From positions 62,001 through 126,000 of the forward strand of contig CAMWSM010000002.1 in assembly GCA_947176915.1 (NCBI GenBank): a stretch of 64,000 bases of DNA, given 5' to 3'. This DNA is from an uncultured Porphyromonadaceae bacterium (lineage in GTDB: Bacteria > Bacteroidota > Bacteroidia > Bacteroidales > Muribaculaceae). Shown in pieces: positions 32,306 through 53,047 of this stretch (within the stretch, counting starts at the first letter, position 1; every line of letters begins with the position of its first letter). A program made the position numbers and the translations under genes. The notes under the pieces were generated by a model, which saw only the letters and a program-made list of their open reading frames with translations, did not search any database and was not told where the DNA came from.

Positions 32306-33858
32306 TCAATCGTGCTTATTTTCCAGCCGTCGATTGTTCTCTTTTCAGTTGAGAAATTCACTCCAGCAAGAATCTTTTGTCTTGGGTCCACCTCAAACCG
32401 CTCAGCATATCCCTTTTCTATAATCTGATCAAGAGCATCCGCCGGAGTTGAATTAACCTTAAATTCAAATATATAGATAAAGTTGGGAGTCTCGACAGTG
32501 AGGTCGCATCTCCCTCGGGAGCTGTGTGATTCCGCCTGTGCGATATAGCCCAATAGTTTGACAAATATAGCAAACATGTTTTGGAAATGAATCTCCTTGT
32601 TTGGCTCGTATTCGGAGTTTGTATCAGCCATCAGACTTTTTAGACGTCTTAGGAATCCCTCAATATCTCCTTTAGAGAGACTATCTCTGAAATTCTCTAT
32701 TGCAAACAATCTCGGAGTAGTTTCCGGCTGAAAGAAATGATTGATAAGGGAATTCCAGAAGCTCCTATAGACTTCTAAATTAGGAATTCCTAATGTATAT
32801 TCATCAAATTCCTCATCATAACCTTTTATTGTCAGGTAACCTGCTTGATATAATAAAGGAACGAGATCCTGTTTCATAGATCCTATATTATTCAGTTGGG
32901 ATGCAGTTCTAACCGGATGTTTCAATTGTGAAAGGTCAAAATGATTTGTCTCTAAAATTTTTATAAGATGTGTGGGAGAACCGGACTCATACCAGTAATC
33001 CCTTATCTTTTTTTTATCAAAAGCCAAGAGCACACAAAACGGATTATATATACCCTCTCCATATTCGGAGAACATATAGCCATCATAATTGTCCTTGAAT
33101 AGTGTCCACACCTGCTCTTCCGGAATATTTCTCACTTTGGAAAATTCCGCTACAGATTCTTGAAAGCTATTTCTGAATTCAGTTTCTGATATTCCGCAGA
33201 CGGTATTATATCTCGGATCAAGCGTTATATCCGTCAAATTATTGAGCCCACTGAAAATATTAATTTTTCCAAACTTGGTAATGCCTGTAAGCATTCCGAA
33301 TTTTATATATTCATCGCTCTGCTTCAATACTCCATAGAATCCTCTCAATTCATTTTTTAGAACTGAATTGAGTTCTGCATCATGGAGAGAATCTATAAGT
33401 GGCTTATCATATTCATCAACCAATACTACTACCTGTTTACCTGTTGATGTAGCAACTCCCGTAATCAAGGAAAAAAAACGTATTCCAAGGTCAAGACTCC
33501 TATCTTTCTCTGACAATCCATATTTCTTTTCATAAAAACTTATGTACTCTATCAACTTATCGCGAATTGTTTCTACTCCTGAATAAGAAGCGCCGCTTAA
33601 GTCAAATCTAAGCACAGGATATGACTTCCATTCCTTTTCAAGATCATATATAGCAAGTCCCTCAAAAAGAGTCTTTTTACCTTCGAAATATGATTGAAGT
33701 GTGGAGACAAGAAGGCTCTTCCCGAAGCGCCGGGGTCGGCTTAGGAAAACGTACTTATTACTCTTTACCAATTTATAGACAGATGCGGTCTTATCCACAT
33801 AGAGATAATTGTCTTCCCTTATCTCTGAAAATGTCTGTATGCCTACCGGGTATCTCAT
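32302..33858 (-). CDS. AAA-ATPase-like/PD-(D/E)XK (DUF1703) protein, copy 1
   Basis: A 518-residue protein. N-terminal AAA-ATPase_like domain: VDKT at about 21, Walker A-like RPRRFGKS (41-48), Walker B VVVLVDEYDKPL (Asp148, Glu149), TGITKFGK. The C-terminal domain has a PD-(D/E)XK-type core (GRCDL then FEFK, near residues 450-475). This large family is expanded in gut Bacteroidales and anaerobes and its function is not established; nuclease or defence/mobility roles have been suggested. A GGAGG lies before the ATG, and a -7 element TATATTTG is at 33884-33891 on the minus strand. It is paralogous to the gene at 42632. Confidence 0.9.
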   Translation of the reverse strand: MRYPVGIQTFSEIREDNYLYVDKTASVYKLVKSNKYVFLSRPRRFGKSLLVSTLQSYFEGKKTLFEGLAIYDLEKEWKSYPVLRFDLSGASYSGVETIRDKLIEYISFYEKKYGLSEKDRSLDLGIRFFSLITGVATSTGKQVVVLVDEYDKPLIDSLHDAELNSVLKNELRGFYGVLKQSDEYIKFGMLTGITKFGKINIFSGLNNLTDITLDPRYNTVCGISETEFRNSFQESVAEFSKVRNIPEEQVWTLFKDNYDGYMFSEYGEGIYNPFCVLLAFDKKKIRDYWYESGSPTHLIKILETNHFDLSQLKHPVRTASQLNNIGSMKQDLVPLLYQAGYLTIKGYDEEFDEYTLGIPNLEVYRSFWNSLINHFFQPETTPRLFAIENFRDSLSKGDIEGFLRRLKSLMADTNSEYEPNKEIHFQNMFAIFVKLLGYIAQAESHSSRGRCDLTVETPNFIYIFEFKVNSTPADALDQIIEKGYAERFEVDPRQKILAGVNFSTEKRTIDGWKISTIE

Positions 33859-37509: not shown

Positions 37510-39216
37510 ATGAAAACAAAATTTATATATGGTCTTTTAGCCCTGGGGTTGACTGCATCTCTTTCCTCCTGTTCTGAGAATTATCTTGACACGGTGCCAC
37601 AGAGTTCAGTTTCACTTCCCACCCTTTTCAATGATCCAGACGGGGCCCAGAACGCTATCAATGGTCTTGGCAAGTTGATGTGTTCCCAATATATGAGCAC
37701 ACAGGGTCAGAATGGAGAAGGTACCATGCAACTTTACTTTGGTGATTATCCAGGCATGGCACTCCAAAAATGTGACTATACCGGCTGGATGAACACCATC
37801 AACGGGAAATATCATTCCAACAATTCGAATGGCAACATGGCTTTCTCCTGGCATTATCCTTACCGTTTAATAGCCAATGCCAATATCATCATCAACAACA
37901 TTCCTAAAGAACCTAAAGAGGAGGATAAGGCTGCATGGGGCTATATCAAGGCCCAGGCGCTTTGCTATCGTGCTCATTCCTATCTTTATCTGGTTCAGCT
38001 CTATTCCCGTCGTTGGGGCTATCGGGATGGTGAGTCGAGAGGTGTGATAATCCGCGATGATGCTGAGTATGGTGTAGATCCTGAATACACAATTACTCCG
38101 AAGGCTGCTTCGTCTCTTAAGGAGGTCTATGAGTATATTTATACTGATCTTGAGGAGGCAATCACACTCTTCCAGGCTTCAACCCAGAATCGTCCTTCAT
38201 CAAAGCGTTGGCTTCCGGCAGAATCTGTAGCTCACGCTATCTATGCAAGAGCTGCTCTTACTCGCGAAGATTGGGCAACTGCCTCCGCTCAAGCTAAACT
38301 TGCTTGTAAAGGTGCAAGCCTGATGACCGCCGAAGAGTATGAGGCTGGTTTCAACACTCCCAACAATGAGTGGATATGGGCTGCCTTCAATAGTGAGGAG
38401 CAAGACGTTTACTACTATTCTTTCTTCGCATACGTGGGCTCCAATTCAAAGTCATCAAGCTGTCGCACAAATCCAGTAGCGATAAGCCGCCAATTGGTTG
38501 AAAAGATTCCGGCAAATGATAGCCGTCTGCGTATTTACGCAATTCCGACCGAGGAGGAACTTCCCAAATATCCTGAGCAGGTTTCAGGTTCGGGAAAAGT
38601 AACTCTGACAAGCACAGCTAATCTTAAGAAATTGAAAGCCGCTGCAGAAGAGGATCCTGATAAAAATGGACCCGCCTATGAAAATGCTCTTCAATGTAAC
38701 GCCTTCTATAATCGTATCAAAGGAGACTCTTTCTATACCGGAAGAATGTACAGCACCACAACACTTTATTATTATCTTTGTACAAAATTCCTTGCTCAGA
38801 ATGATCTTGGTGTCGGTCAGCTTTGTCTTTACAGAATGGCTGAGATGCTATATATTCAAGCTGAGGCAGAGTATATGTTAGGGAACGAGGCGACTGCCCG
38901 TCAAGTGCTTGAAAGCGCGGTGGCACCATATCAGGATAACTATACATGCACTCTTACAGGTGATGAGCTTCTTGAGGAGATACTTACTTACAGAGAGTTC
39001 GATCTCTGCGGAGAGGGTCACTCCTGGTTTGACATCAAACGTAGAGGTGCCTCCTTTGAGAGAAAATCCTGGCTTGATGGTGGTAGTTGGAATGAATCAT
39101 TTGCTATCGAGGGTGGACCGAACTACGAAAATGACATGACTTTCGTTTATCCTCAGATCGAGACTAATTATAATCAATTAGTGCAGAGCACTGAGAGCCC
39201 GACTTGGCCTAATTAA
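37510..39216 (+). CDS. SusD/RagB-family lipoprotein (pair 4)
   Basis: A 568-residue SusD-like lipoprotein with lipobox LSSC (Cys21) and mature start SENYLDTVPQSSV. Shares with the SusD at 26331 the order of motifs MCSQY-GQNGEGTM, KAQALCYRAHSYLYLVQLYSRRW and FDLCGEGHSWFDIKRRG. It ends the pair 4 operon; no glycosidase or sulfatase follows before the terminator at 39247. Confidence 0.95.
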   Translation: MKTKFIYGLLALGLTASLSSCSENYLDTVPQSSVSLPTLFNDPDGAQNAINGLGKLMCSQYMSTQGQNGEGTMQLYFGDYPGMALQKCDYTGWMNTINGKYHSNNSNGNMAFSWHYPYRLIANANIIINNIPKEPKEEDKAAWGYIKAQALCYRAHSYLYLVQLYSRRWGYRDGESRGVIIRDDAEYGVDPEYTITPKAASSLKEVYEYIYTDLEEAITLFQASTQNRPSSKRWLPAESVAHAIYARAALTREDWATASAQAKLACKGASLMTAEEYEAGFNTPNNEWIWAAFNSEEQDVYYYSFFAYVGSNSKSSSCRTNPVAISRQLVEKIPANDSRLRIYAIPTEEELPKYPEQVSGSGKVTLTSTANLKKLKAAAEEDPDKNGPAYENALQCNAFYNRIKGDSFYTGRMYSTTTLYYYLCTKFLAQNDLGVGQLCLYRMAEMLYIQAEAEYMLGNEATARQVLESAVAPYQDNYTCTLTGDELLEEILTYREFDLCGEGHSWFDIKRRGASFERKSWLDGGSWNESFAIEGGPNYENDMTFVYPQIETNYNQLVQSTESPTWPN

Positions 39217-39246
39217 TCTTGAGATAAGCAATCGAAAACTATGATA

Positions 39247-39282
39247 CGAGGGGTGTTGCAATGTGAATTGCGACACCCCTCG
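39247..39282 (+). terminator. Terminator of SusC/SusD pair 4
   Basis: A 16-bp stem (39247-39262 with 39267-39282, CGAGGGGTGTTGCAAT side) with a GTGA tetraloop, the same loop and a related stem as the fructan-locus terminators at 10701 and 18820. Confidence 0.85.
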
Positions 39283-39351
39283 TTCGTGTTCTCGCTCAGA
39301 GGATGAGATTTTAAAAGTCAATAATCTGTCTCAAATCTGCAGGGAGCCTGA

Positions 39352-40617
39352 TCAGGCGAGACAGGCATCGAGAGCAGCCATAATGGCAGGCTTGTCAAGC
39401 TTCTGACCGATGAAGACGAGTTTCTGCATACGGTCGCCATACTCCTCATCCCAGTCTTTTGCGAGTCCGGGTTCTGTGGCGAGCATACGCATCAGTTCAT
39501 CTTCCGGAGCGGTGGCATACCATAGCCCGGCTTCAGTGAGTTTTTTCTGCACTCCGGCCTGTTCAAAAAGATATGACATATCCGTATTGTCATTGAAATA
39601 ACAGATTCCTTTGGCACGGATGATATTTTTAGGCCATTGCTTGGCTACGAAGTAGTCGAATTTGTTGATGTCGAACGGACGGCGGGCGAAGTAGACAAAC
39701 GTGCCTATTCCGTATTCTTCAGCTTCTCCTTCGCCGTGGTGATGATGGTGATGATGGCATACTCCATGCTCATGGTCGCAATGAGAATGATCTTCATGCT
39801 CATGCTCATGCGCATGCTCATGATGGTGTTCATGCTCATGGTGATGCTGATGCTGATGTTCTTCGCGCTCTTTCTCTATCTCTTCTATAGGCTTCTCAAT
39901 TTGCTGTATCCAGGTTGCGGAGGTTACTGTATTTTCAAAATTAAAGAGATGAGTGTCAAGAATCTTGTCGAGGTCGAAGTCGCAATAGTCACATTCAATG
40001 ATCTCAGCTTTTGGCTGAAGTGCGCGAACCACTTCCTTGATGTGCTTTGCCTCTTCGGGTATTACCTCTGAGATTTTGTTGAGGACAATGATGTTGCAGA
40101 ATTCAATCTGCTGGATAACGAGACTTTCAATATCCTCCTCCCCGATATTTGGAGAAGTGAGGCGATCTCCCTTGTCAAATTCGCTTTTCAGGCGCAAGGC
40201 ATCCACTACAGTCACTATGCAGTCGAGCACAGGCACTCCATGACGCACAAGATTAGGAGCCATGAAAGGCATAGAGCATATTGTCTGAGCGATTGGCTCA
40301 GGCTCGCAAATGCCGCTTGCCTCGATAACGATATAGTCGAAATCTGCCTCCATAAGGTCTGAAAGCTGTTGCATAAGGTCAGTTTTCAAAGTGCAGCAGA
40401 TGCAGCCGTTCTGGAGGGCTACGAGGGAGTCGTCGCTATTGCCAACTATGCCACCCTTGGCAATGAGGTCTGCGTCTATATTGACTTCCCCTATGTCATT
40501 AACGATTACAGCAAATTTTATACCTTTTCTGTTATTTAGAATGCGGTTGAGGAGAGTGGTTTTTCCGCTTCCGAGATACCCGGTGAGCAGAAGCACCGGA
40601 GTTTGTTTATTTTTCAT
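39352..40617 (-). CDS. COG0523/CobW-family GTPase, putative zinc or metal chaperone with His-rich loop
   Basis: A 421-residue SIMIBI-class GTPase that would insert or deliver a metal to a target protein. Walker A GYLGSGKTT (13-21), the metal-binding CxCC motif GCICCTL (Cys72, 74, 75), IVLNK for guanine recognition (about 177-181) and a CobW C-terminal domain (about 303-418). Between them lies a tract (about 253-294) with 24 histidines and 2 cysteines. Such tracts are known in zinc-linked COG0523 members (YjiA/ZNG1 relatives); nickel, cobalt or iron cannot be excluded. It starts inside the 3' end of the lipoprotein gene (11-base overlap), so it is coupled to it. Confidence 0.9.
   Translation of the reverse strand: MKNKQTPVLLLTGYLGSGKTTLLNRILNNRKGIKFAVIVNDIGEVNIDADLIAKGGIVGNSDDSLVALQNGCICCTLKTDLMQQLSDLMEADFDYIVIEASGICEPEPIAQTICSMPFMAPNLVRHGVPVLDCIVTVVDALRLKSEFDKGDRLTSPNIGEEDIESLVIQQIEFCNIIVLNKISEVIPEEAKHIKEVVRALQPKAEIIECDYCDFDLDKILDTHLFNFENTVTSATWIQQIEKPIEEIEKEREEHQHQHHHEHEHHHEHAHEHEHEDHSHCDHEHGVCHHHHHHHGEGEAEEYGIGTFVYFARRPFDINKFDYFVAKQWPKNIIRAKGICYFNDNTDMSYLFEQAGVQKKLTEAGLWYATAPEDELMRMLATEPGLAKDWDEEYGDRMQKLVFIGQKLDKPAIMAALDACLA
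39736..39858 (-). repeat. Histidine-codon-rich tract in the CobW-family gene
   Basis: About 41 codons of which 24 are His, mixed CAT/CAC with Glu and Asp. On the plus strand this reads as ATG-rich repeats that create a spurious Met-rich ORF. Confidence 0.85.
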
Positions 40618-41125
40618 AATCTATATCCTTAAGATAGGTATTTATATCTGAAATGTGATATTGCGCTTCATTGATTGTATAAGGAAGTTGCACAATCTGA
40701 GTTACTTTCGCTCCCGGAATGACCGCCTCAAGCAATTGAGCTACTGAAGGAACGGAGGGAAGTTGGGAATATTCCGAGAAAGTATAAGAAGTGAATACAG
40801 AATTTCCACTTACACCCTGACGGTTTAGCCACCACCCGTTGTCAAGTTTAAGGGGGGCGGAGGATGCCGAGATGTCGGTAGGAGCAGGATAATAGAGAAG
40901 TCCTCCATCACTGTTGAGCGTGATCGCCACGTTGTTCGCGTAGTCGCCGCTCATGCGGAAAGCGGTGGCTTTCGGAATTTTAGATTTCACTATCATAGGA
41001 TCCATTTTTTTAACCTTGGGGGCTTCTGTAGAAGGGGAGGGGGCAGTAGCCACATATTGCTTGGAAGTGCAGGAAGCGAAAAGAGCCACTGCAGGTAGCG
41101 TATAAAGAAGAAGTCGAGAATTCAT
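40607..41125 (-). CDS. Uncharacterised lipoprotein, 172 aa
   Basis: Signal peptide with lipobox LFASC (Cys19), then a Ser/Pro/Ala/Thr linker (TAPSPSTEAP) and a compact domain of about 130 residues (AFRMSGDYANNVAITL, YYPAPTDISASS, GWWLNRQGVS). No family is recognised. It lies 73 bases downstream of the porin-like gene and overlaps the CobW-family gene by 11 bases, all on the minus strand, so it probably belongs to the same metal-linked operon and sits in the envelope. Confidence 0.75.
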   Translation of the reverse strand: MNSRLLLYTLPAVALFASCTSKQYVATAPSPSTEAPKVKKMDPMIVKSKIPKATAFRMSGDYANNVAITLNSDGGLLYYPAPTDISASSAPLKLDNGWWLNRQGVSGNSVFTSYTFSEYSQLPSVPSVAQLLEAVIPGAKVTQIVQLPYTINEAQYHISDINTYLKDIDYEK

Positions 41126-41198
41126 ATTCTAATATGTTTAGATAATATTCAATACTTACTTATATGCAAATATAACAAATTTTTTCTTTAAAGCCAAA

Positions 41199-42497
41199 TC
41201 AGAAACTTACTTTGAGCATAGCTTCGATTCGATTGTCGTGTGATTGGGTGCCGCTGTAGTCCACTCGTCTTCCGTATAGATATTCGAGTCCGACCTGCAC
41301 GATGCTGTTGACATTGCAGAAAATATTAGCTACAGCATATTGGGCATATTTGTAGCCTGTCTTCCAATCTGAAGATGAATCTGAGAAGGGATGATCGTAG
41401 GTGCGGACATGGCCGTATGCCGTAGAGCAGAACCATTTCGGATTGAAATTATATTGAAGGCCTCCGTATGCTCCCCATACTTCCACAGGGTCAAGCGCGG
41501 AACTATTGTCGGGATCCGGCATAAGATCCATTCCTAGTCCGGTTAAATCCTGAATATAGCTTGCTATGCCTTTGCCGTAAACCCCTTGCCAGCATGCCGA
41601 GAGACCTCCGGCTATAGGGGTGGTGCCGCTTGTTTTAATACCCCATCCGACAACATCCACATTTCGTGAGGCAGTCAGATCTCGATAGTATAGATTACGG
41701 ATAATAGCAGAGAAACGCAGCCATCCCGATCCTTTTGCCCAATTTTTCTGTAGATAGAAGGGAATGTCGGGCACACGTTGTGACACGGTAGCCGTATTGG
41801 AGGCGTTTGTGAATGAATAGGTGGGCATATCAAGTCCGATACCGGCTTTCCAACCCTGATTCTTGCCAAATGTTTTCTCATAACCGATCATGCCATGAGT
41901 AACACATGTGAAGGCATTTACCCCTTCATAATCGATAGTGGTCGGTGATGCTCCTGCATCGGTAAAAAGTGAATATGTATAGCCGGCGGTGATGCCACGG
42001 TATTTCAGATATGCATGATTAAGGGATGGTGCATAATTATTCCCCACGAAGTTGATTGAGACGTATGCTCCGAGCTGGTTCACATTCCCCGGAAGCGCAA
42101 CGACATTGAGATATATGTTGCTCTGTTGGGCGGTAAATTTGAATTGAGCTCCGTTGCCGGGAGTTTTTGTCATCGGAATGCCTGAAGTTGCGAACAAGAT
42201 AGGGGATGGGATAGGATTTCCTATATCATACACCCCTTCAGTAAGGATGTTCGCACCTATGCCCATGTAGAACTTACCCTCCTTCCCAAGCATTGCAAAA
42301 CGCGGCACATCCGGGATATTGTAAACGTGCGGGGCATTCTGATGAAGAGTTTCATAGAGGGAGTCTCCCGGCTCCATCATTTTTATGCCTCCTTCATGGA
42401 GATGGCTTGACGGATGTGTGTGCGGAGGAACTGAATCCTGTCCAAAACCTGTTAGTGTCGCGGAGAGGAGAAGTGGAAGTAGCAGGGCTTTTTTCAT
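41199..42497 (-). CDS. Outer-membrane porin-like beta-barrel with His-rich N-terminus
   Basis: A 432-residue exported protein: signal peptide (about 1-19, ending TGFGQ), a short histidine-rich mature N-terminus (HTHPSSHLHEGG), a coil with DSLYETL, then a region of alternating strands (GKFYMGIGANI, FKFTAQQSNIYLNVV, GAYVSINFVG, ITAGYTYSLF) ending in Phe (LKVSF). This fits a 16-strand-class porin such as the DcaP/OprO type; the exact family is uncertain. It heads the operon with the lipoprotein and the metal GTPase, and the His-rich N-terminus supports a metal-acquisition or metal-export role (inference). Confidence 0.75.
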   Translation of the reverse strand: MKKALLLPLLLSATLTGFGQDSVPPHTHPSSHLHEGGIKMMEPGDSLYETLHQNAPHVYNIPDVPRFAMLGKEGKFYMGIGANILTEGVYDIGNPIPSPILFATSGIPMTKTPGNGAQFKFTAQQSNIYLNVVALPGNVNQLGAYVSINFVGNNYAPSLNHAYLKYRGITAGYTYSLFTDAGASPTTIDYEGVNAFTCVTHGMIGYEKTFGKNQGWKAGIGLDMPTYSFTNASNTATVSQRVPDIPFYLQKNWAKGSGWLRFSAIIRNLYYRDLTASRNVDVVGWGIKTSGTTPIAGGLSACWQGVYGKGIASYIQDLTGLGMDLMPDPDNSSALDPVEVWGAYGGLQYNFNPKWFCSTAYGHVRTYDHPFSDSSSDWKTGYKYAQYAVANIFCNVNSIVQVGLEYLYGRRVDYSGTQSHDNRIEAMLKVSF

Positions 42498-42513
42498 ATT
42501 TGAAATAAGTTGA

Positions 42514-42546
42514 TGTTTTACAATTATAACAGAGTAACCAAAGTTA
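42514..42546 (-). promoter_or_regulatory. Promoter with overlapping dyad in front of the porin/lipoprotein/GTPase operon
   Basis: Minus-strand TAACTTTG (42539-42546) matches TAnnTTTG. Just downstream, over the predicted start site, lies a near-palindrome TTATAATTGTAA (10 of 12 positions symmetric), reminiscent of Zur/Fur-type operators. The operator reading is inference. Confidence 0.5.
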
Positions 42547-42585
42547 AGTTTAATTAAATAAATAAGTGCCGGAAAATAGTTTAAT

Positions 42586-42615
42586 TGAGCATAACGGAAA
42601 TTTATATTACCTTTG
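42586..42615 (+). promoter_or_regulatory. Promoter of AAA/nuclease copy 2
   Basis: TTG at 42586-42588, 19 bases, TACCTTTG at 42608-42615. It places transcription start near 42621 and so favours the ATG at 42632 over the one at 42566. Confidence 0.75.
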
Positions 42616-42631
42616 CAAAAACAACATAACT

Positions 42632-44203
42632 ATGGAAATGAACCATCTCCCTAAATATCCTGTAAGCACTGCCGATTTTGAAAGGATCCGCACAAGAGAT
42701 TATATATATGTGGATAAAACAGCGTATATCCACACATTAGTAACGAGGGGGGTATATTATTTTTTGAGTCGTCCACGCCGCTTCGGGAAAAGTCTTCTTA
42801 TCTCCACTCTTGAAGCATATTTTCATGGGAAAAGGAACCTATTTAAAGGTCTGGCAATAGAGAGGCTTCAGCCGGATGAATGGAATGTCTATCCTGTGCT
42901 TCGATTTGATATGAGCCGGGGGATATTTATCGATAGAACCGGAATAAATACAGTTTTGGATGGATTTCTGAAAGAGTATGAAAAGGAATATGGAATTGAA
43001 AAGGAGGATGAGGCTCCTTCCGCCAGACTGGCTCATATTATAAAGTCTATCAATAGCAGGACTAAAAAACGTGTGGTTGTCCTGATAGACGAGTATGACA
43101 GTCCGCTTTCGGGAGTGGTTGATAATCCTGAATTATTCGAATATAACCGCGGTGTGCTTCACGGATTTTATTCGGTGTTGAAAGCTATGGATCCATATAT
43201 TCATTTCTGTATGCTTACGGGAGTAACCAAATTTGGAAAAATGTCTGTCTTCAGCGGATTGAATAATCTTGAAGATATATCAATGGATAACCGTTACGCA
43301 GGTATTTGTGGAATCACCAATAAAGAACTACATGATTATTTCGAGAAAAGTATAAGCTATTTGGGCATTAGTTGTGGTTGGGATATTAAACAGACTTATG
43401 AAAACCTAAAATTTAATTATGATGGGTATCATTTCTCTGATAGTATGGAGGATGTCTACAATCCTTATAGTGTCTTAAATTGTCTTGAGAGTAGAAAAAT
43501 CGGACCTTATTGGTCTATGTCAGGGATGCCTACTCTTCTTGTCAGATTGTTGAAAGAAAATGATTTCGATATAAATGAATTGAATGGCGCTGAGGTAACG
43601 GCAGATCAACTGAGCGCACTTATATATGAAAATATAGATCCGATAGCTCTTTTTTACCAAACCGGTTATCTGTCTATAAAAGGATATGACAGGGAGTTTG
43701 ACCTATACACGGTAGGTTATCCTAACCGGGAAGTAGAGAAAAGTTTGTTGTCAGGCATACTTACCGGATATTGCCCTTCAATAAATAGGGTAGAGGGTAT
43801 CGTTTCCAAAATGACTCAATATCTTAGAAAGGGATTGCCGGGGGAGTTTGTAAAGGAACTCAAGTCTTTTTTGGCAGGCATCCCGTTGCAGTTGCGTAAA
43901 AAAGTGGGTGTGTATGAGAATTATTATCATACAATTTTTTATTGCGTAACACGTCTTCTGGGACTTAATGTGAAAGCGGAGTATTCTACTTCGGAGGGTT
44001 TTATAGATATATTGATAGAGACAAAAAAATATATTTACATAGTAGAGCTGAAGGTCAACGGTAATGCTGCAGCAGCTTTGCGGCAAATTGAAGAGAAGCA
44101 CTATAGCGCCTCTTTTGAATCTGACTCCAGAATGGTGTATAAAATAGGAATAGGATTTTCAAAACAGAGCGGAACCATTGATTCTGTAGAGATAGCCGGA
44201 TAG
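42632..44203 (+). CDS. AAA-ATPase-like/PD-(D/E)XK (DUF1703) protein, copy 2
   Basis: About 523 residues from the ATG at 42632. Paralog of the gene at 32302: YVDKTAYI, Walker A-like RPRRFGKS, Walker B VVVLIDEYDSPL, TGVTKFGKMSVFSGLNNL, and a C-terminal PD-(D/E)XK core (FIDILIE then YIVELK). It is a single gene with its own promoter and a shared convergent terminator. Codon use is rather AT-rich compared with the neighbouring SusC genes, as is copy 1, which may reflect horizontal spread. Function not established. Confidence 0.9.
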   Translation: MEMNHLPKYPVSTADFERIRTRDYIYVDKTAYIHTLVTRGVYYFLSRPRRFGKSLLISTLEAYFHGKRNLFKGLAIERLQPDEWNVYPVLRFDMSRGIFIDRTGINTVLDGFLKEYEKEYGIEKEDEAPSARLAHIIKSINSRTKKRVVVLIDEYDSPLSGVVDNPELFEYNRGVLHGFYSVLKAMDPYIHFCMLTGVTKFGKMSVFSGLNNLEDISMDNRYAGICGITNKELHDYFEKSISYLGISCGWDIKQTYENLKFNYDGYHFSDSMEDVYNPYSVLNCLESRKIGPYWSMSGMPTLLVRLLKENDFDINELNGAEVTADQLSALIYENIDPIALFYQTGYLSIKGYDREFDLYTVGYPNREVEKSLLSGILTGYCPSINRVEGIVSKMTQYLRKGLPGEFVKELKSFLAGIPLQLRKKVGVYENYYHTIFYCVTRLLGLNVKAEYSTSEGFIDILIETKKYIYIVELKVNGNAAAALRQIEEKHYSASFESDSRMVYKIGIGFSKQSGTIDSVEIAG

Positions 44204-44245
44204 AATAAGCCACGTTGGATAAGAGTCAAATATCTTTTGTAAAAA

Positions 44246-44282
44246 AACAGGGATTGAAAGTCGGAAACTTTCAATCCCTGTT
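44246..44282. terminator. Bidirectional terminator between AAA copy 2 and the antiporter
   Basis: AACAGGGATTGAAAGT (44246-44261) pairs with 44267-44282 over 16 bp, with an A-run on the left; convergent genes end at 44203 and 44318. Confidence 0.88.
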
Positions 44283-44317
44283 GATGAATTATTTTTCAAA
44301 TAATAATTATTTTAACC

Positions 44318-45943
44318 TTATGATAAGCGGCTCACATCGTTGTTGGTGCGGACGTCGCCTTCTGCGATGCCCTCTTTCATAGCTGCTTGAATTTCTGCTT
44401 CAGTAGGCTGATAGTTGGCTGCCCATTTGGACACCTGATCGGGCTTACGGCCCTCAATCTGCCAGTTGAAGGGATAGAAGTCATTGTCAGGATCTCTCCA
44501 TGATGGTTTACGCTTTGCATAAACTATGAATGGGAATGCTACAAAAACTACAACTCCGATAAGGATAATACCTACGTAGACTACAGGAGAACCGGTGGTA
44601 ATCTGGGCTGGCGGGACAAAGCTGATCACCAATGCTACGAGAGCACCAAGAACGCCAAGAATAAAGACGAACCATTTGCCGAAATTGCCGCAAGGCACAC
44701 GGAAACCTCTCTTTACATTAGGTTCGGTTCTGCGAAGTCTCAGGAATGCACCATATATGATGATTACCATGATAAGATACAATACGGTAGACATTTGGCT
44801 AAGAACCTGATAGGCTGACTCAACACTCGGCATTATAACCAAGGCAAGTGCCAATACGGTTACAAATATACCCTGTACCCAGAGGATAGGAACCTGAATG
44901 CCGTTTTTATTGACTTTCTGGAGACCACGGGGGAGGAAGCCTGCACGACCTACGGCGAGAATACCTGTAGAGGGGGCTGAAATCACCACAGTAACCTGTG
45001 CAAGCGCACCGATTGTAATCAACAGTGCCATAACATTACCCAACCAAGGCACACCCATGGCAGCCCAAAGGCGATTGTATGCTACAAGCAGCGATTGGAG
45101 AAGATTGATATCTTTTTCAGGAACGGCTGCGCCGATAGCAAGGGTGGAGAAGACGAAGATTGCAAGAATCATCACCACGGCTATAAAGCAGGCACGCGGG
45201 AAATTCTTTGCCGGATTGACCATTGAAGGAACATGCACTGCCTGCATCTCCATTCCCGCATAGAAAAGGAAGATTGACGCTGCAAGCACTATATCACCGA
45301 ATTTTGAGAAGTTCGGGAAGAAAGGCTGGTCGGTCGGGATATAAATCTTATGGCCGAGAGCCACATAGAGTATACCAAGAACAATAAGGATTGCGGCCGG
45401 GATAATCGTACCGGTCAAACCTCCGAATGTTGAAAGTTTATTTGCATATTTCTGACCTTTGAAGGTTACGAAAGTCGCAATCCAGTAGACAGCCAATACT
45501 ACGATAAGAGTGTAGATCACATTCTTCGCAAGTTTTTCGTCGAAAGTTTCAGGCCAGAAAATAAATGCGAGAGAAACAGCGGCGAACATCAGCACGGCAG
45601 GGAACCATATAACGACCATCTGCCATTCCAAATACATCGCCACCCAGCCCCATTTCGGACCGAATGCCTCGGAACACCATCTGAAAAGACCTCCCGAGCG
45701 AGTATAAGCTGAAGCTAATTCTGCACAGACAAGTGCATAAGGAACGAGAAAAACAAGGGCAGCAAACACATAATAGAAAATTGAGCCGTAGCCATATTCC
45801 GCCTGTGATGCCATGCCACGCATACTGACGATATTGGTCACTATCATGATTGCCATGGCACCCATGGTAAGCGTAGCTACCTTTTTCCCGGTCGGTATTT
45901 TTCCGGCACCTGCCGGCGTGGGCTTAGTTTGAGTGGTATCCAT
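44318..45943 (-). CDS. APC-family amino acid:amine antiporter, GadC-like
   Basis: A 541-residue inner-membrane transporter with about 12 transmembrane segments. The unwound TM1 region (IVTNIVSMRGMA), ELASAYTRSGGLFRWCSEAFGPKWGW and the TM6 region FLFYAGMEMQAVHV resemble glutamate:GABA antiporters. A long soluble C-terminus (FNWQIEGRKPDQVSKW onwards, about 40 residues) could correspond to the GadC pH-gated C-plug. It lies 134 bases downstream of, and in the same direction as, a decarboxylase-family gene, the usual layout of decarboxylation/antiport acid-resistance or energy systems. Which amino acid and amine it exchanges is unknown. Confidence 0.85.
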   Translation of the reverse strand: MDTTQTKPTPAGAGKIPTGKKVATLTMGAMAIMIVTNIVSMRGMASQAEYGYGSIFYYVFAALVFLVPYALVCAELASAYTRSGGLFRWCSEAFGPKWGWVAMYLEWQMVVIWFPAVLMFAAVSLAFIFWPETFDEKLAKNVIYTLIVVLAVYWIATFVTFKGQKYANKLSTFGGLTGTIIPAAILIVLGILYVALGHKIYIPTDQPFFPNFSKFGDIVLAASIFLFYAGMEMQAVHVPSMVNPAKNFPRACFIAVVMILAIFVFSTLAIGAAVPEKDINLLQSLLVAYNRLWAAMGVPWLGNVMALLITIGALAQVTVVISAPSTGILAVGRAGFLPRGLQKVNKNGIQVPILWVQGIFVTVLALALVIMPSVESAYQVLSQMSTVLYLIMVIIIYGAFLRLRRTEPNVKRGFRVPCGNFGKWFVFILGVLGALVALVISFVPPAQITTGSPVVYVGIILIGVVVFVAFPFIVYAKRKPSWRDPDNDFYPFNWQIEGRKPDQVSKWAANYQPTEAEIQAAMKEGIAEGDVRTNNDVSRLS

Positions 45944-45971
45944 AATTACATAGAATGATAGTTTAAAAATA

Positions 45972-46062
45972 GAGTCCGACGTAACGAACGAGACACAACT
46001 CGTTGTTTCACGTCGGACTCGGTTATCTATAATTATCTCTCAATCCTTTTTGTAGAGGATTG
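45972..46062. terminator. Two hairpins between the decarboxylase-like gene and the antiporter
   Basis: Stem 1: GAGTCCGACGT at 45972-45982 with 46010-46020, extended by an inner ACGAG/CTCGT. Stem 2: CAATCCT at 46041-46047 with AGGATTG at 46056-46062. They could end decarboxylase transcription or set the relative levels of the two proteins. Confidence 0.65.
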
Positions 46063-46077
46063 GGTTTTCACTCTTAT

Positions 46078-47232
46078 TTATTTACGAACACGAAGTGCGG
46101 GATATGCCTGACCTACCTTTGTTCCAACTTTGTAGTGAACTCCGGGATGTGCAGTTATTTCCACGTTGGAAGCACGTTCATAAACAGTAACGATATCTGA
46201 ACCACCGAACTGGAAGTAGCTGATTTCCTCACCTTTCTGAAGTGTTACACCCTCTTCTGCAGTAAGAATGATAGAGCTTACCTGAGCCATACCCATCGGG
46301 AGAACTGCAACAAGACCAACCGGACTGTCAATTACTACAAGACCACGAGTCTGCATGAATTCGTAACCGGCATCATCAGGAGCATCAAATACTCTCTTAG
46401 CCTTAATCACTGAACGTCCGAAAGGATCATTAGGTATAGGTTCGGGAACGACCTGCAGATAAGTTGTGCCCTGGATTACTCTTGCCTCGACAACACGACC
46501 TCCTACAGGTGCATGCTGACGGTGGTAATCGTATGTGTTAAGGAATGAGTGGGTCCAATGACCTCCTTTGAAACGATCTGCGTATGGGCTTCCTTCGAGA
46601 AGTTCTTCAATCTTCCAGTCAAGACCCTTGATGTCTACGTGTGAGTCGCTGTTGATTTCCCACTGACCGTCAAATGTGCAGTCTGCAGGCGATACAATGA
46701 TTGAGTCATCCCAAGGAGCTGCGATAGGACGGTAACCCGGTTTTGTGCGACGTGCGAAAAGCTGGTTATAGCTCTTCCAACCGCCACGCGGACGGATATA
46801 CTCATTCATGTTATAGAGAGGTGATTCATAGAATGTACGCTCTGATTCCGGTGTGAGTGAACCCGGCTGATCCATCCAGTTTCCAAGTTCGGTAACGAAT
46901 TTACGCATCCAAGCTGAAAGTGGAGTCAGAGGCTGCATCTGGTCATGAGGTACTACTGCGTTCTGAAGCTCCTTGACAGGTGACTGATCAAGAACGAAGT
47001 AGAACATACATACATGTTTGTAGACTTCTTTACCGTAGCGGTCCTCTACAGGTACCCAGCTAAGCTGTGCGTTACACCAATCGATGTAGTCATCAAGATT
47101 CTTGATGTTCTCAAAGCCGTAAATATTATAGCTGATAGCTTTCTTTACTGCCTCTTCGAATTTGTCACGCCAGCCGTTGTTGTTGATCATGTCAACCAAT
47201 TCCTGTACTACAGGATGCAATGTTTTTTCCAT
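46078..47232 (-). CDS. Phosphatidylserine-decarboxylase-family pyruvoyl enzyme, likely acting on a free amino acid
   Basis: A 384-residue soluble protein. The C-terminal two thirds are the PSD fold: Asp184 in SPADCTF, catalytic His237 in TYDYHRQHAP, and the self-cleavage site FQFGGSDIV, where Ser345 would become the pyruvoyl cofactor. The N-terminal 150 residues (LHPVVQELVDMI..., CMFYFVLDQSP, YNQLFARRTKPG) resemble the extra domain of PSD-like proteins such as the tryptophan decarboxylase PsiD, and do not look like the membrane-bound N-terminus of bacterial Psd. There is no transmembrane helix. With the GadC-like antiporter next to it, a role as PLP-independent amino-acid decarboxylase is more attractive than phospholipid synthesis (inference). 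A true phosphatidylserine decarboxylase is the alternative. Confidence 0.85.
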   Translation of the reverse strand: MEKTLHPVVQELVDMINNNGWRDKFEEAVKKAISYNIYGFENIKNLDDYIDWCNAQLSWVPVEDRYGKEVYKHVCMFYFVLDQSPVKELQNAVVPHDQMQPLTPLSAWMRKFVTELGNWMDQPGSLTPESERTFYESPLYNMNEYIRPRGGWKSYNQLFARRTKPGYRPIAAPWDDSIIVSPADCTFDGQWEINSDSHVDIKGLDWKIEELLEGSPYADRFKGGHWTHSFLNTYDYHRQHAPVGGRVVEARVIQGTTYLQVVPEPIPNDPFGRSVIKAKRVFDAPDDAGYEFMQTRGLVVIDSPVGLVAVLPMGMAQVSSIILTAEEGVTLQKGEEISYFQFGGSDIVTVYERASNVEITAHPGVHYKVGTKVGQAYPALRVRK

Positions 47233-47852
47233 AATATAATTATTTTTAAAAGACGTGTGAGTAAAAATTGATCGAAACTAATCAGGGAAATTCCTTACCT
47301 TTTTAAGGTTATGTCCTTGCCATATCGAAGAAATTCTAAACACATTAAATTCGAGAACTATTGTTTTCAGAAATATAGCAATTATTCAAAAATTATCAAA
47401 GTAGGGGTCTTCGACTTTTTAATCAGTAATGTTATTGTTCTGACTACGTTAATATAACATTCCCTATGGAGAAATTGTTTTGGGAATGAGTTTTTTTAAT
47501 GAATTTCAAAAAATAGCGTTGTTTTACGAGGCTGCGGAGCGGTTAAAGTTATAGTTTGGGGGTCATCTATTATTGGTCATCTATTATTAAGGAGTAAGAA
47601 TTGGATCTATGGAAGACTAAGTTTCTTGCTGCTTCAATAGTTAAAATTTAGATTCATAAATTTTTTATCAGGTAGCCTTGAAACAATATAGGAACTTATC
47701 GTGTTAAAAAATTAATATGAATTTGGAGGAATCCAATCATTTAAACATAATTCGGAAGGATCTGATATGAGGAGTGAAAGCAGGATTATGATTTAAACAG
47801 CAACAGAGGAATCCAAACATTAATGAATTATTAACTTTTAAAGCCTTTATCT
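47233..47852. other. 620-bp gene-free divergent spacer with direct repeats
   Basis: AT-rich spacer between the decarboxylase-like gene (minus) and the MFS gene (plus). It holds an exact tandem 14-bp duplication GGTCATCTATTATT (47561-47574 and 47575-47588), and a 15-bp direct repeat GAGGAATCCAA(T/A)CAT at 47726-47740 and 47806-47820, 80 bp apart. TAACTTTT at 47832 is a weak -7 candidate for the MFS gene. No ORF or RNA gene was recognised. Confidence 0.6.
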
Positions 47853-49142
47853 ATGAAGTATGTTAACTCCGGCGAAGGTAAGATTCCTCTAATAACTCTC
47901 ATCTCCATTCTTACTATCTCTTTGGCTGTAAACCTTCCGGGTCTTGCAATTTCCCCTATTTTGGGAAAGTTAGATCAGGTTTTCCATCATGTTACAGAGC
48001 TTGAGGTGCAGCTGCTGACTGTCTTGCCTAATCTCGTAACAATACCGTTTATTTTATGCTCAGGTAAGATATGCAGTGAGAAAAATCAGATATTCGTACT
48101 CGGTTTAGGGCTTGTAATCTATACAGTGACAGGCATCCTGTATTTTTTCGCGGGCAGTATGACCGAGCTTATCATTCTCAGTTGTGTTCTCGGAATGGGA
48201 TGCGGTCTTATTATACCTTTGGCAGCGAGCCTTATCTCGCAGAACTTCACAGGAAAGGCACGTACGAAGCAGTTGGGTATGAAGTCCTCTCTTTCTAACT
48301 TCTCGATTATATTTGCAACTCTCTTTGTAGGTTGGGCTGCCTCGATTGACTGGCACTTGTCATTCCTGGTTTATCTTGTGCCGATCATACCGTTGGTATT
48401 GATTTATTTCATGAGCAACAGGTATATCCAAAAACATAGGATTCTTGATTCAGTGGCTCCGGCGTCTTCAACCGGTCAGACTGTTTCCGTGAGTTCCGGA
48501 GCAAGCGGAACGGGTGGAACACCTGCTTCAAATTCTGTTGCTCAGAGATTCACCAAAAAGCAAGCTCTTTGGCTTCTCATCGGCATAATGGTGCTTTATT
48601 TCGTTATCACGTACGCTACTGACATGGTAAGCTATTATCTTCCGTTCACAATGGAGCATTATCATTTTTCTACAGATGATGTCGGGGTGGCAACTTCCCT
48701 TTATTTTGCCGGAATCACTCTCGGAGGTTTCTTGCTTACCCATGTGATAGCGATTTTGCGACAATATACAATGCAGGTGACGATTGCGTTATGTATAATA
48801 GGTCTCTTCATGGTTGGATTCCTACATGCCTACTGGTCGTTTATCCTCGGAGTTTTCCTTATGGGATTTGGATATGGCGTGATTCAGCCCGTTTTTTACG
48901 ATAAAACTTCTGACATTGCCCCCACTCCTGCGAAGTCAACAGCATATTTCTCTTATCTTCTCGCCTGCAATTATGTCGGCATAGCAATAGTGCCTTTCAT
49001 AATCGGAGGAGCCGAGAAATTGTTTAAGGCACAAAACGACCCCAACTTCGCAGCGATATTCAACGGATGTGTCCTCGTTGGAGTATTGATTATCGCAATA
49101 TTTAAATTCAGGAGTTTCGCCTTCAAGGCTGAAGAAAAATAA
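47853..49142 (+). CDS. MFS transporter of unknown substrate
   Basis: A 429-residue inner-membrane protein with about 12 hydrophobic segments and a Ser/Gly/Thr-rich central loop (about 203-228: SSTGQTVSVSSGASGTGG). N-terminal half: AVNLPGLAISPILGKL, GMGCGLIIPLAASLISQNF. C-terminal half: GFGYGVIQPVFYDKTSDIA and ACNYVGIAIVPFIIGG. The pattern fits MFS exporters. It is divergent from the decarboxylase/antiporter genes over a long spacer and may be co-regulated with them, but nothing in the sequence proves this. Confidence 0.85.
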   Translation: MKYVNSGEGKIPLITLISILTISLAVNLPGLAISPILGKLDQVFHHVTELEVQLLTVLPNLVTIPFILCSGKICSEKNQIFVLGLGLVIYTVTGILYFFAGSMTELIILSCVLGMGCGLIIPLAASLISQNFTGKARTKQLGMKSSLSNFSIIFATLFVGWAASIDWHLSFLVYLVPIIPLVLIYFMSNRYIQKHRILDSVAPASSTGQTVSVSSGASGTGGTPASNSVAQRFTKKQALWLLIGIMVLYFVITYATDMVSYYLPFTMEHYHFSTDDVGVATSLYFAGITLGGFLLTHVIAILRQYTMQVTIALCIIGLFMVGFLHAYWSFILGVFLMGFGYGVIQPVFYDKTSDIAPTPAKSTAYFSYLLACNYVGIAIVPFIIGGAEKLFKAQNDPNFAAIFNGCVLVGVLIIAIFKFRSFAFKAEEK

Positions 49143-49152
49143 GAAATAAATA

Positions 49153-49188
49153 AAAAAGGAGGATTCGAATCCTCCTTTTTTATTTTTT
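49153..49188. terminator. Terminator after the MFS gene
   Basis: A perfect 28-bp palindrome (AAAAAGGAGGATTC and its complement, 49153-49180) followed by TATTTTTTTA. Confidence 0.92.
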
Positions 49189-49201
49189 TAAGCTGGAGTT
49201 A

Positions 49202-49238
49202 CGCCGGGAGTGGGGTCAGTCCCCTGACCCCGGGGGCG
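49202..49238. repeat. GC-rich palindromic hairpin between MFS and panB
   Basis: GGGGTCAG (49212-49219) pairs with CTGACCCC (49224-49231), and CGCC (49202-49205) with GGCG (49235-49238). Much richer in GC than its surroundings and lacking a T-run; a REP-like palindromic element or part of the panB terminator. Confidence 0.6.
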
Positions 49239-49259
49239 ACGAAGAGCGATGATTAAGAA

Positions 49260-50081
49260 TCAGTATGATTCCTTTTCGTTGGGGAAGTCCCCGCTTTTCA
49301 CATCATTGATATAGTTTTGCACTGCATCTGTCATTATGCCGGCAAGGTCGGCATATCTACGTAGAAAACGGGGAGAGAAGCCTTTGTTGATGCCCAGCAT
49401 ATCATGCATGACCAGTACTTGACCATCCACTCCACCGCCGGCTCCAATACCGATCACCGGAATTGAAAGCTGATCGGCAACCCTTTTTGCCAATTCAGCG
49501 GGAATCTTTTCAAGCACCAGGGCAAAGCAGCCGATCTCCTCCAGAAGACGTGCGTCTTCGATAAGCTTATTGGCTTCAGCCTCTTCGCGGGCACGCACGT
49601 TGTAAGTGCCGAATTTATTGATACTTTGGGGGGTTAAGCCCAGATGCCCCATAACCGGTATTCCGGCAGAAAGTATGCGCTCCACTGATTCACGAATTTC
49701 ACTTCCTCCTTCAATCTTTACTGCTTCGGCATGGCTTTCTTTCATTATTCTCACAGCGGAAGCGAGCGCCTCTTTGGAATTGCCCTGGTAAGAACCGAAT
49801 GGCAGATCCACTACGACGAGGGCACGTTTAGTGCCTTTCATCACCGACTTTGCATGATAGATCATCTGATCGAGAGTTATGGGGAGGGTGGTCATATTTC
49901 CTGCCATCACATTTGAGGCTGAATCACCTACAAGAAGGACATCAATTCCTGCTTCATCAAGAATTTTTGCAGAGGAGAAATCGTAGGCTGTGAGCATAGA
50001 AATTTTTTCTCCACGGCTTTTCATTTCGACAAGACGGCGGGTCGTAACCTTGCGCGTATTATCAATGGTATTCGTTGACAT
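49260..50081 (-). CDS. panB: 3-methyl-2-oxobutanoate hydroxymethyltransferase
   Basis: A 273-residue cytosolic TIM-barrel enzyme that makes ketopantoate from ketoisovalerate and methylenetetrahydrofolate, the first step of pantothenate and CoA synthesis. Motifs: [12 protein letters not shown], metal-site VGDSASNVM (51-59), [37 protein letters not shown] and [21 protein letters not shown]. Length is typical. Single gene, divergent from leuS; no panC/panD nearby. Confidence 0.97.
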
Positions 50082-50192
50082 ATTTTAATTTGGAGAGAGA
50101 ATAAATTTATTTATTTGGGTTGTTTTCGGGTTGCAAGGATGAGAGGCGTTGCAAAATTACAAAAAGAGTGTGAATTATGAAAATATGTGTTG

Positions 50193-50223
50193 TTGTGGAA
50201 ATTAACGGAAATTGTTAACTTTG
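50193..50223 (+). promoter_or_regulatory. Promoter of leuS
   Basis: TTG at 50193-50195, 20 bases, TAACTTTG at 50216-50223, followed by a leader of about 55 nt. Confidence 0.75.
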
Positions 50224-50284
50224 CACAATAATTGGTGCAAATCTCACAGAGTTTTGCAGATAGACAAGATAACAACATAAAGAT

Positions 50285-53047
50285 ATGGAATATAATCACC
50301 GCGAAATTGAACAACGCTGGCAGCAGTACTGGCGCGATAACGAGACTTATCGCGCAACGGAGAAACCCGGAAAAAAGAAATTTTATGTTCTTGACATGTT
50401 TCCTTATCCTTCAGGAGCGGGTTTGCATGTAGGACATCCCTTGGGTTACATAGCGAGCGACATCTATTCGCGCTTCAAGCGTCAGCAAGGTTTTAACGTG
50501 CTCCATCCAATGGGTTATGATGCTTACGGTCTTCCTGCAGAACAATATGCCATCCAGACCGGTCAGCATCCTGAGAAGACCACTATGGCTAATATAGCGC
50601 GTTACCGTGAACAGCTTGACAAAATAGGCTTCTCATTCGACTGGAGTCGTGAGATCAGGACCTGTGATCCTGAATACTACAAATGGACCCAGTGGGCTTT
50701 CATCCGGATGTTCAATTCCTATTACGACCGTAAGGAGCAGAAAGCCCGTCCGATTTCTGAGCTTGTGGCTCATTTTGCAGAGAAAGGCACGGAGGGAGTT
50801 GACGCTGCTTGTTCAAAAGAGCTTCACTTCACTGCCGCAGAATGGAATGCGATGAGCGAAAAGGAGAAGGCTGACACATTGATGAACTATCGCATCGCCT
50901 ATCAGGGGGAGACAATGGTGAACTGGTGTGAGGCTCTCGGCACTGTGCTTGCAAATGATGAAGTGAGCGAGGGTGTCAGCGTTCGCGGAGGGCATCCGGT
51001 TGAGCAGAAGGTTATGAATCAATGGTGTCTGCGTGTGTCCGCATACGCCCCGCGCCTTCTTGATGATCTAAACACTATCGAATGGAGTGATTCCCTGAAA
51101 GAGACACAGCGCAACTGGATAGGGCGCAGCGAGGGTGCTGAGATGAGATTCCCGGTGGTAGGAAAAGATTTCGACCTTGAGATATTCACTACGAGAGCAG
51201 ACACAAGTTTCGGGGTAACATTCATGGTTCTTGCTCCCGAATCGAAATACGTGCAGCAGTTGGTGACTCCTGAGCAGAAGGAAGCAGTCGATGCTTATCT
51301 TGCCGAGGTGAGCCATAAGACGGAGCGTGAACGCCAGATAGAGAAAAAGGTGTCGGGTGTGTTCACCGGAAGTTATGCGGTTAATCCTATTTCGGGAAAG
51401 GAAATTCCGATTTGGGTGAGTGATTATGTTCTTGCCGGATATGGAACCGGAGCAATCATGGCAGTTCCGGCACACGATTCACGCGACTATGCCTTCGCCA
51501 AGCATTTCAACCTTCCGATCATTCCTTTGATAGAGGGTGCGGATGTAAGCGAGGAGAGCTTTGACGCAAAGGAGGGGAAGATGATAAACTCCGCTAATGA
51601 GAAACTGAATCTCAACGGACTTGAGGTGAAGGAAGCCATAGCCAAAACAAAAAGATTTATTGAAGAGGAGGGTATCGGTAGAGTTAAGGTTAACTATCGC
51701 CTCCGCGATGCCATCTTCTCCCGCCAAAGATATTGGGGCGAGCCCTTCCCGGTCTATTATAAAGACGGAATTGCTCATGTTATGGATGAGTCAGACCTCC
51801 CGTTGATGCTTCCTGAAGTGGACGCTTATCTTCCGACCTCTACAGGAGAGCCACCCTTGGGGCGTGCAAAGAATTGGGTTACAAAAGAGGGTTATCCGAT
51901 AGAGCTTTGCACGATGCCGGGTTTTGCCGGATCAAGCGCCTACTATCTACGCTACATGGACCCGCGCAACAACGATGCTTTGGTGAGCAAGGAGGCTGAT
52001 GAATATTGGCGCAATGTGGATCTTTATGTAGGAGGATCCGAACATGCCACAGGCCACCTTATTTACTCGCGCTTTTGGAATAAATTCCTTTATGACCTTG
52101 GTCTGGTTGTGGAGCCGGAGCCATTCCGCAAGCTTGTGAACCAAGGCATGATTCAGGGAAGGAGCAGTTTTGTTTACCGTGTGAAGGACACCAATACATT
52201 TGTGAGCAAGGGGCTGAAGAATCAATATGACGTTACCCCGATACGTGTGGATATCAACATGGTGAGCAATGATGTCCTGGATATTGATAAGTTCAGAAGC
52301 TGGCGCCCTGAATTTGCTGACGCCGAGTTTATCCTTGAAGATGGAAAGTATGTCTGTGGCTATGCCGTAGAGAAGATGTCTAAATCTATGTTCAACGTCG
52401 TTAATCCGGATGATATTGTAGACCGCTACGGCGCGGACACCCTCCGTCTGTATGAGATGTTCCTTGGCCCTATCGAGCAGTCGAAGCCTTGGGATACTAA
52501 CGGCATTGACGGAGCCAACCGTTTCCTCAAGAAACTTTGGGGACACTTCGGCAAACTTGATCTCAGCAAGAGGGAACCGATGACAAAGGGTGAACTCAAG
52601 ACAATGCATAAGCTGATAAAGAAGGTTACTCAAGATATTGAAAATTTCTCTTTCAACACATCGGTTGCGGCATTTATGGTGGCGCTCAACGAACTGACAG
52701 CCCAGAAATCTACAAATGTAGAGGCAATGGAGATATTCACCCGTCTGATAGCTCCCTTTGCGCCACACCTTGCGGAGGAGTTTTGGCATCAGCTTGGCAA
52801 AGAGGGGTCGGTGGTGGATTCCGAATGGCCCGTATATGACGAGGCGAATCTGAAGGAGGACACCGTAAAATATCCTGTCAGCTTCAATGGAAAGACACGC
52901 TTCATGCTTGACGTGCCGGCAGAAGCCGACAAAGCTGCAGTAGAGGCTGCTGCCCTCTCCGCCCCTGACGCTGAAAAATGGCTTTCCGGCAAAACTCCTA
53001 AAAAAGTAATAGTTGTCCCCGGCAAGATCGTCAACATCGTTATATAA
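50285..53047 (+). CDS. leuS: Leucyl-tRNA synthetase
   Basis: A 920-residue class I aminoacyl-tRNA synthetase charging tRNA-Leu. HIGH-box HVGH at 48-51, the CP1 editing domain (about 230-500; includes [18 protein letters not shown] and [17 protein letters not shown]), KMSKS at 697-701 and a C-terminal anticodon-binding and RNA-contact part. It is longer than the E. coli enzyme (860), as is usual for Bacteroidetes. The terminator at 53090 follows 43 bases after its stop. Confidence 0.98.

Follow-up and report, generated by a model that had tools for sequence, protein, structure and literature searches.

A 64,000-nucleotide stretch of contig CAMWSM010000002.1 (positions 62,001 to 126,000; assembly GCA_947176915.1) from an uncultured bacterium of the Muribaculaceae, hereafter the window, carries on its minus strand a gene for a protein of the phosphatidylserine decarboxylase (PSD) family and, 134 bp downstream of it, a gene for a GadC-like amino-acid antiporter. 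An earlier note on this DNA had pointed to two adjoining open reading frames (ORFs) on one strand, both of which were found where it placed them, and had interpreted them as a pyruvoyl-dependent amino-acid decarboxylation/antiport pair. The present analysis supports this interpretation, and we regard it as highly probable that a self-processed pyruvoyl decarboxylase and an amino acid/amine antiporter form a two-gene system. The basis is the gene content, the catalytic residues, a modelled fold of the PsiD/ADC type (see below), the conserved linkage of the genes and the occurrence, in relatives, of a pyridoxal 5´-phosphate (PLP) enzyme in the same place.

From these observations we infer self-processing, activity, exchange and a physiological role of the pair as follows. 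By homology with PSD and PsiD, the PSD-like protein would cut itself at FGGS, turning Ser345 into the pyruvoyl cofactor. In the cytoplasm, the processed enzyme would decarboxylate a free amino acid and thereby consume a proton, and the antiporter would take the amino acid in and let the amine out. As a result, the internal pH would rise and, depending on charge, the proton-motive force would be helped.

The PSD-like protein and the canonical psd

The protein matches PF02666 over residues 156–374 (E 5e-44, Pfam), and this core contains the processing serine. The catalytic elements named in the earlier note, Asp184, His237 and FGGS with Ser345, are present and conserved in an alignment of 96 members, comprising the window protein and 95 different proteins from relatives' loci (three distant ones among them). 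His237, Gly343, Gly344 and Ser345 are invariant and Phe342 is found in 95; at position 184, 88 members have Asp and eight have Glu, the latter being later tandem copies in eight relatives' loci. Because PsiD and ADC apparently also have Glu near this position (profile alignments to PDB entries, read by eye), the Glu184 copies may be active. Tandem arrangement was seen more widely: in 13 of the 62 Bacteroidales-type loci described below (L021–L032 and L034) the PSD-like gene is present in two or three copies, which in most cases are arrayed in tandem ahead of a single antiporter; eight of the 13 include the Glu184 copy.

The earlier note was also right that the protein has no membrane anchor, inasmuch as no N-terminal membrane segment is found by Kyte-Doolittle hydropathy over 19-residue stretches. 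The most hydrophobic stretch (mean 1.95) starts at residue 305, in the beta domain, in contrast to 2.58 at residue 26 of the open frame of the genome's canonical psd. A predicted model (pLDDT 84) matches by fold, over residues 3–343, two fungal enzymes, namely PsiD, the L-tryptophan decarboxylase of Psilocybe secondary metabolism (8x4q, 8zia; 17–20% identity in the fold alignments), and the pyruvoyl arginine decarboxylase (ADC) of Aspergillus oryzae (9jer, 9jf5). Escherichia coli PSD, which acts on a lipid, matches residues 80–343 and nothing over the first 79. The model thus supports an extra N-terminal region before the PSD core, as in PsiD/ADC-type enzymes. We know of no antiporter partner for PsiD.

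The search for a second, canonical psd in the source genome, proposed in the earlier note, was positive. The genome has two PF02666 matches, the window protein and a copy in contig 17 that adjoins pssA. Both genes in contig 17 pass their NCBIfam cut-offs (psd 243.6 against 225, pssA 114 against 107), whereas the window protein is below every listed psd equivalog cut-off (best 93 bits against 307). The window gene is accordingly neither the sole psd of its genome nor linked to pssA. Within the genus sample (below), eight genomes have the PSD-like gene, and seven of these contain a further PF02666 gene; the exception is G013, which is 76% complete.

Linkage to the antiporter and a PLP enzyme in the same place

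A contig search gave 76 loci among the matches listed, a scope that holds for all counts of these loci. By record titles and similarity 62 of them were classed as Bacteroidales-type; some titles of metagenome-assembled genomes name other phyla and look wrong. A same-strand antiporter lies within 700 bp downstream of the PSD-like gene in 47 of the 62. Linkage was then assessed in 149 family genomes, sampled evenly. PSD-like matches occurred in 27, two of which were distant and left out of the count (G101, 34%, and G196, 36% and with a stop), leaving 25 genomes with a PSD-like gene at 53% identity or more. An antiporter of the window's group, which we call type A (at least 56% identity to the window protein; the next group is at 45–49%), is present in 25/25 of these as against 3/124 of the others. 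In 24 of the 25 the two genes are linked, with gaps of 90–318 bp. In this sample a decarboxylase-type gene thus adjoins and co-occurs with an antiporter of the amino acid-polyamine-organocation (APC) family, and the linkage that the earlier note wished to see tested is conserved. With this linkage and the second psd, neither of the outcomes that the note named as refuting its reading was seen. In a genus sample (37 of 61 genomes searched), the antiporter was found in 8/8 genomes with the PSD-like gene and 0/29 without it; seven of the eight pairs are same-strand neighbours and that of G023 is divergent. Pairwise distances of the 47 linked enzymes and antiporters are correlated (r 0.69, with 0 of 999 permutations as high), a result that shared ancestry alone would produce as well.

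The three family genomes with a type-A antiporter and no PSD-like gene (G134, G154 and G164) each carry, directly upstream and on the same strand, a gene termed C4 here, whose product is a PLP decarboxylase of group II, some 583 residues long (PF00282 was demonstrated on two other copies). This PLP enzyme in the position of the PSD-like gene was not foreseen in the earlier note. C4 occurs in 7/149 family genomes, always upstream of a type-A antiporter: alone in these three, and with the PSD-like gene between in four (G070, G136, G152 and G189). It is also found in 11 of the 62 Bacteroidales-type loci. The position of C4 before the same type of antiporter argues more strongly than anything else that the PSD-like enzyme acts like a PLP amino-acid decarboxylase. 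In the best reading of the sequences, the PSD-fold enzyme and a PLP enzyme can stand in for each other on one antiporter type. No PF00282 match was found in the source genome, which is about 90% complete and has a single TIGR03813 match. An in-frame stop was seen in the antiporter of G131 (one of the 24 linked cases) and in the C4 of G136, perhaps through decay or assembly error.

Antiporter groups, substrate and surroundings

The window antiporter matches PF13520 (E 1e-55) and E. coli GadC (4dji, E 3e-60). The GadC-like C-terminal plug claimed in the earlier note was not confirmed: the protein does continue for some 63 residues beyond its last hydrophobic segment, but this tail has a conserved motif of its own and could not be aligned with the E. 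coli GadC plug. A second antiporter (type B, 45–47% identity to that of the window) occurs in seven genomes of the genus with GadB adjoining and GlsA between, the families having been verified on the G022 copies. This GadB-GlsA-GadC system is a separate one, and G008 and G021 have both. Like the window pair and E. coli GadBC, it consists of a decarboxylase followed by a GadC-type antiporter; it differs in the PLP enzyme, the glutaminase, the antiporter group and the pocket residues. The GadB-linked proteins cluster together in the antiporter tree, behind a long branch (SH-aLRT 100), and are drawn inside the others; the rooting of this tree, on E. coli GadC (branch 10), is untrustworthy. The two systems can occupy the same slot. 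In G022, leuS-panB-...-MFS-porin-cobW encloses GadB-GlsA-GadC (MFS, major facilitator superfamily), and in the congener G016 it encloses the PSD-like gene and antiporter, with an MFS protein at 61% and a porin at 71% identity to those of G022. The window has the same slot flanks, but its MFS gene is divergent and an AAA-ATPase gene is inserted.

Residues bearing on the substrate were compared in 59 antiporters: 39 of 58 locus stretches kept after filtering for length and near-duplicates (L033 was also removed), the window, L098, seven GadB-linked proteins, E. coli GadC and L112–L121. As reference we used E218, Y378 and Y382 of E. coli GadC, residues known from work on that protein. All 59 retain E218 and Y378. 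At the place of Y382, the 31 antiporters from PSD loci have Val (29), Ile (one) or Ala (one). Val is also found there in the antiporters with both C4 and PSD (6), with C4 only (3) and in other copies (8, L098 included), and Tyr in all seven GadB-linked proteins, E. coli GadC and three C4-linked antiporters of Bacteroides. With few exceptions, type A differs from the GadB-linked proteins and E. coli GadC at positions 234, 316, 393 and 397. At position 234, type A has Gln, or Asn in two proteins, where the GadB-linked proteins and E. coli GadC have Ser, and position 106 is Glu or Asp in type A, Gln in the GadB-linked and Bacteroides C4-linked proteins and Gly in E. coli. Since PSD-linked and C4-only antiporters have the same signature, the sequences suggest one substrate common to both enzymes, other than glutamate, and make glutamate/γ-aminobutyrate (GABA) an unlikely substrate pair. 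The acidic residue 106 and the fold relationship to ADC would point to basic amino acids and that to PsiD to aromatic ones, so that a basic or aromatic amino acid is our guess.

C4 itself offered little guidance on this point. Its model is poor (pLDDT 64), and the E-values of its matches to decarboxylases of Trp, Glu, Lys, cysteine sulfinic acid (CSA) and Tyr differ by no more than about a hundredfold, so the fold names the family only and was rejected as a guide to substrate. NCBIfam and PDB sequence searches were equally vague. The lysine motif of C4 is DFHK, compared with SGHK in GadB, and a second match, NVHK, lies elsewhere in the protein.

The spacer between the two genes appears to be structured. 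Mean folding z-scores (mononucleotide shuffles) are -4.15 in 43 PSD-antiporter spacers of 80–250 nt, -2.26 in 48 other spacers between genes of one strand and -2.21 in 15 PSD-PSD spacers. In the window, an 11-bp stem (46020-46010/45982-45972) precedes a T-rich run, as judged by eye. Attenuator, terminator and stabiliser are candidate roles for this hairpin. No Rfam family was detected within 38000-51000 at gathering thresholds.

Positions in the window of the pair, its key residues and its neighbours
Feature	Positions	Strand	Basis or remark
PSD-fold pyruvoyl-type decarboxylase proenzyme, PsiD/A. oryzae ADC-like architecture	46078..47232	-	384 aa; ORF, PF02666, predicted fold
GadC-like APC amino-acid antiporter, type A	44318..45943	-	541 aa; PF13520, TIGR03813, 4dji match
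Structured spacer between PSD-like gene and antiporter, 134 nt	45944..46077	-	
FGGS, residues 342-345, expected self-cleavage site	46198..46209	-	expected from homology with PSD/PsiD
His237 codon, DYHRQH motif	46522..46524	-	96/96
Asp184 codon, SPAD motif	46681..46683	-	88 D, 8 E of 96
MFS transporter, divergent in window	47853..49142	+	association only
Outer-membrane porin-like protein	41199..42497	-	association only
AAA-ATPase/PD-(D/E)XK protein, between porin and antiporter	42566-44203	+	
CobW-like GTPase, long His-rich stretch	39352-40617	-	named by eye

MFS genes like that of the window are found in 20 and relatives of its porin-like protein in 14 of the 62 Bacteroidales-type loci, and both also occur in GadBC loci. 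The AAA-ATPase/PD-(D/E)XK protein resembles, at 41% identity, a stretch near 32314 on the minus strand of the window and perhaps belongs to a mobile or repeated family. In the window, as in several relatives, the slot ends with the gene for the CobW-like GTPase. PSD-like genes at 57–61% identity, without this antiporter, are also seen in records titled as other phyla (L069, L070, L073, L076–L078, L080–L082 and L085). Their neighbours, by eye, include metH and enolase genes and, in L078, an M36 peptidase; these genes may have another role or work with another transporter. Plasmid relatives of the PSD-like protein are below 60% identity (57 records; the 15 matches listed are at 25–35%).

Alternative readings and meaning

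Several observations weigh against a dedicated decarboxylase-antiporter pair. Fifteen of the 62 Bacteroidales-type loci have no same-strand antiporter downstream; in six it is elsewhere in the locus and in nine there is none in the fetched stretch. None was found in the remaining 14 loci (three from aquatic Bacteroidetes and 11 others, including Methylobacter, Derxia, Riflebacteria and Holophagales; L064 ends 56 bp past the gene), so a PSD-like enzyme can occur without this antiporter. In locus L067, whose record is titled Muribaculaceae bacterium Isolate-037 (Harlan), a cultured strain, the antiporter diverges from the PSD-like gene. In G173 both genes are present and unlinked. Conversely, seven type-A antiporters (L115–L121) have no PSD-like gene, C4 or GadB alongside; six of these seven genomes also carry a linked pair and the seventh is G173 (L120). 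A further candidate for a lone antiporter, L098, was dropped because the contig ends about 0.8 kb off on the upstream side. Since the genomes are related, the co-occurrence counts are less independent than they appear and Fisher p-values exaggerate their independence, and absences from the source genome are not certain at its level of completeness. The window antiporter scores 611.7 bits for TIGR03813, short of the cut-off of 650, whereas the GadB-linked antiporter of G022 reaches 765.5. At the level of sequence, E. coli PSD (70 bits) falls between PsiD (79) and ADC (68) in profile searches. The comparison of the N-terminal region with the PsiD type, also proposed in the earlier note, was positive by fold, whereas Pfam profiles gave no N-terminal domain match at E 0.01 (PF12588 in PsiD/ADC-type enzymes).

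Of the competing explanations, that of an ordinary or auxiliary phosphatidylserine decarboxylase with an incidental antiporter neighbour would fit the PF02666 membership, the full catalytic set, the weak matches to NCBIfam psd models and the closeness of the E. coli PSD profile score to those of PsiD and ADC. It is highly improbable in the face of the canonical psd beside pssA, the further PF02666 genes in the genus, a modelled fold nearer to PsiD and ADC, the conserved linkage to the antiporter and the displacement by a PLP enzyme. The PSD-like enzyme might instead make a biosynthetic amine while the antiporter serves another enzyme, the genes merely travelling together, as the genes without this antiporter nearby in Methylobacter, Derxia, Riflebacteria and Holophagales might indicate. 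We consider this quite unlikely: 21 of the 25 PSD-like family genomes have no C4 for the antiporter to serve (GadB was not sought there), and enzyme and antiporter distances correlate, subject to the caveat of ancestry given above. A third reading, in which the PSD-like protein is a second glutamate decarboxylase and the pair an alternative Glu(Gln)/GABA system, falls within the system proposed here as a special case, so that the two probabilities overlap. It would be in keeping with a Gln/GABA antiporter as the best NCBIfam match of the window antiporter, with the shared slot, and with one locus (L044) in which a glutaminase-like gene follows the MFS gene (38% identity to GlsA, below glutaminase cut-offs). 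No glutaminase match was found in the other 75 loci (E 1e-8, at least 60 residues), GadB-GlsA-GadC coexists with the pair in two genomes, the GadB-linked antiporters stand apart in the tree, and positions 234, 316, 393 and 397 differ, with an acidic residue 106 in type A only; the probability of this case is low.

Decarboxylase-antiporter systems are known as a kind, as are PSD-fold amino-acid decarboxylases in fungi. The histidine decarboxylase of Lactobacillus reuteri and others is a pyruvoyl enzyme with a fold unrelated to that of the PSD-like protein. With a histidine/histamine exchanger it likewise makes up a decarboxylase-exchanger system (PMC6909576). In the part available of a 2025 survey, three groups of pyruvoyl amino-acid decarboxylases are distinguished (His, Asp and Arg), and the terms "PSD" and "phosphatidylserine decarboxylase" do not occur (PMC12484125). 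Searches of an open library of papers brought up no description of a bacterial PSD-fold/antiporter pairing or of its exchange with a PLP enzyme, which is weak evidence of novelty because subscription papers and preprints were mostly outside the search. The plasmid relatives are annotated as "phosphatidylserine decarboxylase family protein", and under this label such genes are likely to be overlooked in surveys of amine-producing gut bacteria.

It seems reasonably probable that the pair represents a separate class in gut Bacteroidales, in which PSD-fold pyruvoyl and PLP enzymes swap on one antiporter type and release an amine other than GABA that is not attributed to such genes in the part of PMC12484125 available; tandem copies may widen the range of substrates or form mixed enzymes. 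If so, roughly a sixth of the genomes in the family sample (25/149) would have an amine output that is so far unattributed, together with a system for acid stress or energy, and the locus would be a clear case of pyruvoyl and PLP enzymes displacing each other at the same operon position.
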